Positions 3,802 to 23,393 of a stretch of 64,000 bases of DNA are shown here, in pieces. This stretch comes from an uncultured Bacteroidota bacterium (GTDB lineage Bacteria > Bacteroidota > Bacteroidia > AKYH767-A > OLB10). The position numbers and the translations under genes are program-made. The stretch is taken from positions 211,753 to 275,752 of the forward strand of contig CAADHD010000025.1 in NCBI GenBank assembly GCA_900696575.1, read 5' to 3'. Position 1 is the first letter of the stretch. Each line of letters opens with the position of its first letter. Below the pieces are notes generated by a model. The model ran no database searches and was not told the origin of the DNA. It saw nothing but the letters and a program-made list of their open reading frames with translations.

Positions 3802-4869
3802 ATGCTTAGAAAAATTCTATTGACAGCCTGTGTTTTTGCCTGCTTTTCTTTTCGCTATGAAGAAAACAAGCACTCGGCAGAAATTGCCATTGTAGCCGAT
3901 TTAAGCGGAAGCACCAACGGCCTGCTGGATGATCTTAGAGACAATCTCTGGAATCTTATTAACTACTTTAACCGAAACAACCCTGAAACTGAGCTTAGGC
4001 TGGCTTTTGTTGGTTTTTCGCGCGGTAGTTTTGGTTTGGAGAATGCTTATGTACGTACTCTATCAGACCTTACCTCGCAGTATGATTTTATCAGCTATGA
4101 ATTATTCCGTATGGTTGGCAGTGTTGAAAAGGGTGACCAATATGTGGGGGCTGCTTTGAAAACCGCAATCACTAACCTGTCATGGTCAAATGATAAAGCC
4201 ACAAAAAAACTGATACTGCTGTTTGGAAACAGCCGGGCTGATTTAGGATATGTTAACTACAGCGATGCCGTTCAGGCTGCAATAAACAAAGGCATTATCA
4301 TTAATAGTATTTATTGTATGAAGCTTGATACTGATCATCGCATACTTAGCAAATGGCACAGCATTGCTGATGGAACCGGAGGTTCTTTATACAAATACCA
4401 GGTAACCAAAAGAAGTCCTAATAAGAATTATACTCAGGGTGCACAACGATTAATTGACCTTAACAATAGTTTGAATGACACCTACATTCCATTCAGTAAA
4501 AAAACCTCCGAAGTTTTGAATAAAATGATTTCTGCCGATGTCAATTCTCTGCAGATGAGTGAACGGTTTTTCATTAGCAGATGCTTGTACAAATGCAATG
4601 GAAGATATCAATCCTATCTGAATGAAAATGATCTGGTGGCCATTTATGCAAAACATGGCGAGTTACCTGATTATAACCGAAACTTCTTTCCGAGAGATTT
4701 GAGGAAAGTAAAAGAAGATGAATTGAAGGCGATTGTTTCTGTGCGTATAGAAAGAAGACAACGATTACTCGAAAAGCTAAATCAGGTGCTGATTGAGGCA
4801 GACTACAATAAACTTTCTGAAAACCCTATTGACAGTATCTTCGCTGAATCTATTGGTCACCATTTTTAA
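3802..4869 (+). CDS. secreted vWA-domain protein, copy 1 (uncharacterised family)
   Basis: A 355-residue protein with a short hydrophobic export signal. It contains possible lipobox-like Cys residues at 10 and 14, but lipidation is uncertain. A von Willebrand A fold follows, with the MIDAS signature D33-L-S35-G-S37 next to TNG. Other vWA-like features are a central strand ending GFSRGSFG, an EKGDQYVGAAL segment and a LILLFGNS strand. The C-terminal ~130 residues are a helical region I do not recognise. It is clearly paralogous to the protein at 21934-23007, matching from the MIDAS to the last 20 residues (both end with DS-I/V-F). It ends one base before the stop of pdxH, tail to tail. Ligand and partner are unknown. 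Confidence 0.75.
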   Translation: MLRKILLTACVFACFSFRYEENKHSAEIAIVADLSGSTNGLLDDLRDNLWNLINYFNRNNPETELRLAFVGFSRGSFGLENAYVRTLSDLTSQYDFISYELFRMVGSVEKGDQYVGAALKTAITNLSWSNDKATKKLILLFGNSRADLGYVNYSDAVQAAINKGIIINSIYCMKLDTDHRILSKWHSIADGTGGSLYKYQVTKRSPNKNYTQGAQRLIDLNNSLNDTYIPFSKKTSEVLNKMISADVNSLQMSERFFISRCLYKCNGRYQSYLNENDLVAIYAKHGELPDYNRNFFPRDLRKVKEDELKAIVSVRIERRQRLLEKLNQVLIEADYNKLSENPIDSIFAESIGHHF

Positions 4870-21775: not shown

Positions 21776-21865
21776 AGGAAGCACAATGCAAATCAGCTTA
21801 AGAAAAACCTTTCTGAAAATGAATCGTTAATTAAAAAACTGTCTGTTAAAGAGCTTAAATCTGTT

Positions 21866-21896
21866 GACAACATCACTGAATAAATTTATTTTTGAT
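21866..21896 (+). promoter_or_regulatory. Bacteroidota-type promoter of the second vWA gene
   Basis: TTG at 21866-21868 (in TTGAC) and TATTTTTG at 21889-21896 are 20 bases apart, matching the -33/-7 consensus. The GTG start at 21934 follows 37 bases later. Confidence 0.65.
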
Positions 21897-21933: not shown

Positions 21934-23007
21934 GTGAGACTTCGTTTAGTTATAATTATTTCAACCCTATTACTGCTTTCTGCCTTTAAGCGTACAGGAA
22001 ATCAGGAGTATAAGCAGGTTGACCTCGTTTTTTGCGTTGATCTCAGCGCAAGCACCAATGGTATTTTGCATGACATCCGAACCGGCATGTGGACAATAGC
22101 CAATAAAATTAACGGAAAAAACAATACCCTAACCCGAATCGGGGTAGTTGGATATGCCCGCCCGAGTTTTGGGGCTACCAACGGATATGTGAAAATTATT
22201 TCAAACCTCACTACCGATTACGATAAGTTGGGGTATGACCTCTATCAATTGAAGGCACAAATAGAAAAGGGAGACCATTTTGTGCCCAATGCACTTTATG
22301 AAACATTGACTAAAATTTCATGGAGTTCCGGTCCGGCTACTAACCGGATAGTTTACCTTATAGGCAACGGCAGCGCCTTTACTGGGCCGCTTAACCTGGT
22401 GAATATTTGCGAAGATTTTACATCAAGAAAAATAACAGTTCACAGTGTTTATGTTGTAGCTTCACAGCAGGATGAAGTCAATGAAAAGGGATACCAAACT
22501 GTGGCAGAAATTACGGGAGGTGAATTTTTCAGGATGAAGCCTTCTCAAAAGATTTTATGGGAAGATAACCGGGAAAAAGCAGGTGTTTATTATAAAATGA
22601 ATCACGCTTTTAACAGTACCATGCTGTTTTATACTCAGGATGCTAACGATAGAAAAAAATACACATTCGAAACAGATAAATACGTACTTCAAAACAGTAC
22701 TGGTGCTTTTATGCAGCGGCTGCGTTACAAAGCATCAGACCAGTACCGGCATGCTGCCGAAAGTTATGACCTTACAAGTTATTACCTTAAAAACAGGACA
22801 CTTCCCCAAAAAATCAATCTGGAGTTTCTTGCTAAAAATGACAGAGTTACCTCTCTTGAACAGATTGAAAAAAGTGTAAGGCAGAAAGCCCTTGCCCGTA
22901 CAAAACTTTGTGAAGAAATCAATTACGTGTTCCGCGAAGCAGTAATTGAAGAACCGGCAACAGAAGATTCGGTTTTCAAACAGATAATTCTGAAAAACAT
23001 TCAATAG
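21934..23007 (+). CDS. secreted vWA-domain protein, copy 2 (uncharacterised family)
   Basis: A 357-residue exported protein with an N-terminal hydrophobic signal (about 5-18) and a vWA domain with MIDAS D36-L-S38-A-S40 followed by TNG. It is paralogous to the protein at 3802-4869. Shared segments are DLSxSTNG, hxD-hR, the SFGxxNxYV block, SxLTxxYD, EKGDxxVxxAL, SWS and a GN-ending strand. The C-terminus shares YK, DLxxYxKxxxLP and a final EAxxxxxxDS-h-F pattern. Export without a lipobox suggests a periplasmic or surface location. The start is GTG; no upstream in-frame ATG exists. The next gene begins 38 bases later on the same strand. No metal partner or ligand is evident. Confidence 0.75.
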   Translation: MRLRLVIIISTLLLLSAFKRTGNQEYKQVDLVFCVDLSASTNGILHDIRTGMWTIANKINGKNNTLTRIGVVGYARPSFGATNGYVKIISNLTTDYDKLGYDLYQLKAQIEKGDHFVPNALYETLTKISWSSGPATNRIVYLIGNGSAFTGPLNLVNICEDFTSRKITVHSVYVVASQQDEVNEKGYQTVAEITGGEFFRMKPSQKILWEDNREKAGVYYKMNHAFNSTMLFYTQDANDRKKYTFETDKYVLQNSTGAFMQRLRYKASDQYRHAAESYDLTSYYLKNRTLPQKINLEFLAKNDRVTSLEQIEKSVRQKALARTKLCEEINYVFREAVIEEPATEDSVFKQIILKNIQ

Positions 23008-23028: not shown

Positions 23029-23036
23029 TACCTTTG
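23029..23036 (+). promoter_or_regulatory. possible -7 element before the YvlD-like gene
   Basis: TACCTTTG matches TAnnTTTG and lies nine bases before the ATG at 23046. A transcript from it would have almost no leader. No clear -33 is present. Confidence 0.35.
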
Positions 23037-23045
23037 TTTAATTAC

Positions 23046-23393
23046 ATGAAATTTATACTTGATACCATCCTTTCCACCCTTTCCATTATGGTGGTTGCTT
23101 ACCTGATGGAACCTTATATAACAGTTGACGGATTCAGTACTTCTTTGATTTTGGCACTGGTGCTTGCTGCTCTTAACTATATCGTTAAACCTATACTTGT
23201 ATTTCTGACCTTACCGGTAACCATTCTCACTTTAGGCCTCTTTCTGCTGGCCATTAATACTTTTATTGTTCTGATGGCTTCTTCCTTAGTTAAAGGGTTT
23301 TATGTTGAAAATTTCTGGTGGGCTATGCTATTCAGCATGGTCCTTTCACTGGTTACTTCCATATTTACAACACTGGCATCAAAAAATAATTAA
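23046..23393 (+). CDS. YvlD/PF04020-family four-helix membrane protein
   Basis: A 115-residue inner-membrane protein with four predicted hydrophobic helices, matching the family labelled phage holin superfamily IV (PF04020, YvlD). Family signature: the ALVLAALNYIVKPILVFLTLPVTILTLGLFL stretch (about residues 38-68), with NxxVKPhLxhLTLPhTxLTLGhF spacing. Despite the family name there is no phage context. I use ATG 23046 rather than TTG 23034. Its stop overlaps the convergent propeller gene by four bases. Function unknown. Confidence 0.88.
   Translation: MKFILDTILSTLSIMVVAYLMEPYITVDGFSTSLILALVLAALNYIVKPILVFLTLPVTILTLGLFLLAINTFIVLMASSLVKGFYVENFWWAMLFSMVLSLVTSIFTTLASKNN

Follow-up and report, generated by a model that had tools for sequence, protein, structure and literature searches.

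Two paralogous vWA proteins of an uncultured Bacteroidota bacterium with a modified MIDAS and a helical module that appears to lie within the fold

Two paralogous genes (A and B) of an uncultured Bacteroidota bacterium (OLB10; assembly GCA_900696575.1) encode members of a genuine protein family that is under-annotated and has a slightly unusual structure. Few protein-binding modules are as common as vWA domains, in which, by the textbook view, ligand binding is read out through movement of helix alpha7. As a tentative proposal that may well fail, A and B are read here as representatives of a widespread bacterial family whose vWA domain has a non-canonical metal site (DxSxS, Gln/Glu and an invariant Asn) and takes up an unrecognised helical domain between beta6 and alpha7. 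One domain within another would form a switch coupled to the allosteric helix of I domains, and the family would have undergone duplications in particular lineages. If this is true, the module on alpha7 and the rebuilt metal site would offer a compact system for testing vWA switch evolution, and a testable model for proteins annotated merely as 'vWA domain-containing'. Unless stated otherwise, coordinates refer to the window, the whole stretch of 64,000 nt that was analysed (contig CAADHD010000025.1, positions 211,753-275,752 of the forward strand). The genes are located as follows:

3802..4869, + strand: protein A, whole gene, 355 aa (ORF check and genome search)
21934..23007, + strand: protein B, whole gene, 357 aa, GTG start (ORF check and genome search)

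The two genes lie 17 kb apart in the window. Their products were aligned by BLASTP over nearly the full length (100/355 residues identical, 28%; 52% similar; 160 bits; E 1e-50), and identity was higher across the vWA part (33%) than across the helical one (20%). As a control, A was compared with the BatA/B-like vWA proteins of its own genome, which scored 29 bits or less in matches confined to part of the vWA region. The full-length alignment, set against this control, bears out the preliminary description, in which A and B were taken to be paralogues, and the blocks that they share go beyond those of two arbitrary vWA domains. The motifs DLS[GA]STNG, SFGxxNxYV, EKGDxxVxxAL and YK, quoted in the same description, were all found in A and B; the spacing of two others was off and was corrected to DLxxxYxKxxxLP and EA-x(8-10)-DS[IV]F. 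A and B are distantly related copies within an old family without a name.

Structural models were obtained with AlphaFold2, using a 35-sequence alignment (A: pLDDT 91.4, pTM 0.87; B: pLDDT 86.7, pTM 0.84). In the model of A, the vWA part starts with beta1 (residues 24-33), a helix (41-59), two beta strands (63-72 and 84-91) and helices, and continues with a strand (135-142), a helix (153-162), a strand (165-172), a helix (179-191) and a strand (196-199). The C-terminal helices follow at residues 212-225, 233-252, 254-265, 267-273, 278-285, 305-332, 335-340 and 342-354. vWA domains were found with Foldseek, and both models matched vWA/I domains with VIA-align (Z 17.8-19.5, rmsd 2.2-3.4, 162-182 residues aligned; best VIA-align Z 19.5 for A and 19.3 for B), so that the vWA domain first proposed from the sequence is clear as a fold in A and in B, at Z of about 19. 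The models were divided as follows:

3868..4410, + strand: A, vWA fold from beta1 to beta6, residues 23-203 (model, Foldseek and VIA-align)
4411..4824, + strand: A, helical insert, residues 204-341 (model, VIA-align and insert profile)
4825..4866, + strand: A, C-terminal helix, residues 342-355, taken as vWA alpha7 (listed alignments reach residue 354-355)
22009..22548, + strand: B, vWA fold from beta1 to beta6, residues 26-205 (model and VIA-align)
22549..22968, + strand: B, helical insert, residues 206-345 (model, VIA-align and insert alignment)
22969..23004, + strand: B, C-terminal helix, residues 346-357, taken as vWA alpha7 (listed alignments reach residue 356-357)

Among the VIA-align matches listed, the aligned range ran from about residue 23 to the last residues of the protein, yet only the 162-182 residues mentioned above were aligned; many of the targets were compact I/vWA domains of about 190 residues. 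Because the alignments match the helix at the very C-terminus to the final helix of the vWA fold, the helical module of about 140 residues appears to be an insert between beta6 and alpha7, a placement read from the alignment ranges and not from a residue-level superposition. The module had been described as an appended C-terminal domain; in the models it appears instead to sit within the vWA fold.

The top structural matches to A and B were integrin I domains and TFIIH p44-type vWA domains (Z 18-19.5), which are eukaryotic and share 9-19% identity with them. In I domains alpha7 comes closely after beta6, whereas about 140 residues lie between the two in A and B. Solved Bat structures (3ibs, BatB of B. 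thetaiotaomicron; 4jdu, B. fragilis) aligned to A with Z of 19.4 and 19.3 over 173 and 170 residues, respectively, and BatA/BatB have the vWA fold and the DxSxS motif in common with A and B. However, the Bat proteins of the window genome carry a full MIDAS (GTAIG, TDG) and hydrophobic membrane segments, both of which A and B lack, and the helical insert sets A and B apart from the Bat proteins (best A-Bat sequence score, 29 bits). Assignment to the Bat proteins also failed on the profile and on the operon: with NF047508, the NCBIfam model for BatA of Leptospira, B scored 19.6 bits where the cut-off is 380, and A and B have housekeeping genes as neighbours, the Bat pair of this genome being located elsewhere (C25:111692-113088).

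Conservation of the insert was assessed in a 14-member alignment, which contained seven invariant columns, and in a 69-member family alignment (45 near-branch and 24 distant-branch rows), in which D246, R260, K264, D277 and R319 were conserved in both branches. The preliminary description had left this second region without a known domain, and the profile searches agree: no Pfam, NCBIfam or PDB sequence match was found. For Pfam, nothing significant was returned with the insert (single-member matches only, E 0.013 or worse), and there was no significant match among PDB sequences for A, for the family profile or for the insert profile. A BAG domain, the best PDB match of the insert profile (E 0.1), was judged to be a chance match and was rejected as a relative. 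When 198 genomes were searched with the insert profile, every match fell in an ORF of 358-496 aa, the size of a vWA domain plus insert; the insert was not seen outside ORFs of this size in those genomes.

Both proteins look exported, as first described: each has a signal-peptide-like hydrophobic start, modelled as one helix, and no further hydrophobic segment was present in the models of A and B. They are most likely soluble exported proteins, presumably of the periplasm. The N-termini are located as follows:

3802..3855, + strand: A, N-terminal stretch resembling a signal peptide, residues 1 to roughly 18 (sequence; hydrophobic helix 2-15 in the model)
21934..21990, + strand: B, N-terminal stretch resembling a signal peptide, residues 1 to roughly 19 (sequence; helix 2-17 in the model)

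The elements of the putative metal site were assigned from motifs and alignments, as follows:

3898..3921, + strand: A, MIDAS motif 1 DLSGSTNG, residues 33-40 (motif and alignment)
4126..4158, + strand: A, EKGDQYVGAAL, residues 109-119, with Gln113 at the canonical MIDAS Thr position (register against BatA/B GTAIG)
4225..4233, + strand: A, GNS, residues 142-144, with Asn143 at the position of the Asp in canonical TDG (Asn in 69/69)
22039..22062, + strand: B, MIDAS motif 1 DLSASTNG, residues 36-43 (motif)
22264..22296, + strand: B, EKGDHFVPNAL, residues 111-121, with His115 at the MIDAS Thr position (motif and alignment)
22363..22371, + strand: B, GNG, residues 144-146, with Asn145 at the MIDAS Asp position (alignment)

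The motif reported initially implied a standard MIDAS, of which DxSxS alone is intact; the Thr and Asp positions are substituted family-wide. In the 69-member alignment, D33 and S35 were kept in all rows having a residue there, S37 was Ser and once Thr, and G142, N143 and W128 were each present in 69/69. N143 lies in the context GN[GSRE], an invariant Asn where a canonical vWA domain has the Asp of TDG. The canonical Thr position was occupied by Gln in 38/45 near-branch rows and by Glu (position 113) in 24/24 distant-branch rows, and position 109 by Glu (43/45) and Asn (22/24), respectively; the distant-branch MIDAS reads DTSxSMDG...GG-x-EYCG...GNE. The acidic residue thus appears to have changed position between the branches. 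A complete MIDAS (DxSxS...T...D), which the fold does not need, is absent from A and B, where the DxSxS part is the only one present.

The best explanation, which comes near to an even chance but falls short of it, is that A and B are exported vWA binding proteins whose modified MIDAS engages an envelope partner and whose helical module is attached to the switch helix. Either a divalent cation or direct hydrogen bonds would still be present at the modified site, which would bind an acidic residue of the envelope partner. In classical integrin I domains, alpha7 shifts on ligand binding; because the module would be tethered to alpha7, the I-domain switch helix, ligand binding might re-orient the module, or the module might hold the vWA domain in one state. 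A and B could then be subfunctionalised copies for two partners, a division that the preliminary description also thought possible; the long stems of A and B in the family tree and their 28% identity would be compatible with it. Against this explanation, a MIDAS that lacks its Thr and Asp may no longer bind metal.

The substitution of these two residues across the family would also suit a metal-free scaffold, in which DxSxS and Asn143 would play a structural part through hydrogen bonds and the partner would bind to a conserved surface of the insert; the insert does have conserved residues of its own in both branches (D246, R260, K264, D277 and R319). Such a scaffold is the main rival and somewhat less probable than the best explanation; against it, DxSxS is kept together with a nearby acid (E109 in the near branch, E113 in the distant branch) and the relocation of this acid between branches looks like retention of a charged site.

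In the databases, A had no match above the curated cut-offs of Pfam and NCBIfam. For Pfam VWA (PF00092, cut-off 23.8 bits) A gave none and B fell just short (23.2 bits); some distant-branch members pass (28-34 bits), and of 27 family members 21 matched at E <=0.01. Weaker matches were obtained with two other models. The TssR vWA domain (PF20782), of the T6SS membrane complex of Bacteroidota, was matched by 2/27 members (best E 9.4e-4); there was no PF20782 match in the window genome, the control genomes were likewise silent, and no T6SS context was seen. DUF1194 (PF06707) was matched weakly by 9/27. According to the part of the source that treats them, DUF1194 proteins recall A and B in being secreted, vWA-like, of unknown function and often paralogous, the paralogues sharing a locus; for Proteobacteria, they have been proposed as cargo of type 11 secretion or as its partners (PMC12282271). 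That the A/B family is a member or close analogue of DUF1194 is nevertheless improbable: A scored 16.2 bits and the other score seen was 17.2, both below the cut-off of 27 bits, and that same part of the source gives the DUF1194 proteins analysed a single globular fold and a MIDAS motif and mentions no inserted module (PMC12282271).

Within the window genome (2.87 Mb, 35 contigs), A and B are the sole two copies of the family, and three further Pfam-VWA matches, including the Bat-like pair, were found. The family was present in 24/24 sampled genomes of the taxonomic family and, by profile search, in 36/42 genomes of the order, a few matches of the latter being partial; across the phylum 50/296 genomes passed E 1e-6, about 35 with full-length matches and the rest with short partial vWA matches. 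A distant branch of similar length is scattered through the phylum. A single-sequence pattern search of genome contigs with A returned nothing, and an alignment-based search of genome contigs returned 37 loci; the named loci belong to uncultured Bacteroidota (e.g. OLB10, UBA6661, 2013_40CM_41_45). Distant-branch homologues were also found on plasmids of the Alphaproteobacteria Paracoccus aminophilus and Ochrobactrum quorumnocens (96-97% coverage, 25-29% identity); the Paracoccus pAMI4 'vWA domain-containing protein' (WP_020952186.1) is such a homologue and is uncharacterised. An origin from mobile elements was considered and rejected (no plasmid match for A, no phage match for one distant-branch homologue).

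A tree was built from the 69 rows (45 in the branch centred on the order; 24 in the distant branch, drawn from further families within the class and the phylum). A formed a clade with its sister-species orthologue (63%) and with one of another genus (52%), and B with its own sister-species orthologue (54%), both with support of 100/100; long stems (0.93 and 1.37 substitutions per site) lead to A and B. Since fragments of a B-like copy are present in a genome (G013) of the same other genus that has the A orthologue, the A/B duplication looks older than the split from that genus. Two copies were found in 4/4 sampled genomes of genus g10. In two Flavobacteriales-like MAGs (L096, L097) the family copies are in tandem, 4 bp apart, and one of each pair reads DLS[SY]STKG, with Lys replacing the Asn of STNG. 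Copies with an in-frame stop or a broken frame (G011:C187, G034:C15, G030:C1) are pseudogenes or assembly errors.

In much of the order, a family member adjoins a 120-aa protein and peptidyl-prolyl isomerase-like and pheS-like genes (both names read from sequence). The 120-aa protein, which is conserved (L064:9504-9875, - strand, plus 26 related ORFs in most of the order, some of them duplicate loci) had no Pfam match. In the window genome this locus is intact on contig 18 (139843-142327; L154) without a vWA gene; therefore A and B both sit away from the usual location of the order. An ORF of about 1060 aa adjoins the vWA-less locus. A is surrounded by genes for a DUF4340 protein, a PRA-PH-like protein, a pyridoxamine-phosphate oxidase and an AlgH-like protein, and the gene order downstream of it is kept in the sister species. 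Conserved neighbours were rejected as a clue to function, being mostly housekeeping synteny within clades. Several distant-branch loci (L121, L127, L143, L144 and L110, L111, L114) lie near DUF4139/DUF4140 or VIT-vWA proteins, which suggests a recurrent envelope context for those members; no tie to A or B was found, and these neighbourhoods were discarded as a clue for the pair.

A gene for a TerB+DnaJ protein follows the family member on the same strand (overlapping to 65 bp downstream) in about 10 distinct genomes of the order, and usually one for a CvpA-like protein comes next. This arrangement would accord with an envelope stress component tied to TerB-like/DnaJ-like proteins, loosely resembling the tellurite-resistance (Ter) vWA proteins. 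Such a role is very doubtful for A and B: the TerB-DnaJ protein was not found in the window genome, where only other DnaJ domains were matched, A and B sit elsewhere, the neighbours in other clades are unrelated, and the vWA proteins of Ter systems are intracellular, whereas A and B look exported. Exposure outside the cell as surface adhesins, the role given to bacterial vWA proteins such as CglB in a passage of PMC12282271, is hardly to be expected either, since no T9SS C-terminal sorting domain was matched in a Pfam scan of A and B at E 0.01, the C-terminus is taken up by the fold itself, and no clear lipobox was read in either sequence.

B is followed by a gene for a Phage_holin_4_2-like membrane protein (23034-23393, + strand; about 26 bp to a TTG, 41 bp to an ATG). 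The pair is also found in the sister species, and the two genes are possibly co-transcribed.

Upstream of B, the site at 21864-21894 (+ strand) reads TTG-N20-TATTTTTG and resembles the Bacteroidota promoter consensus (TTG..TAnnTTTG).
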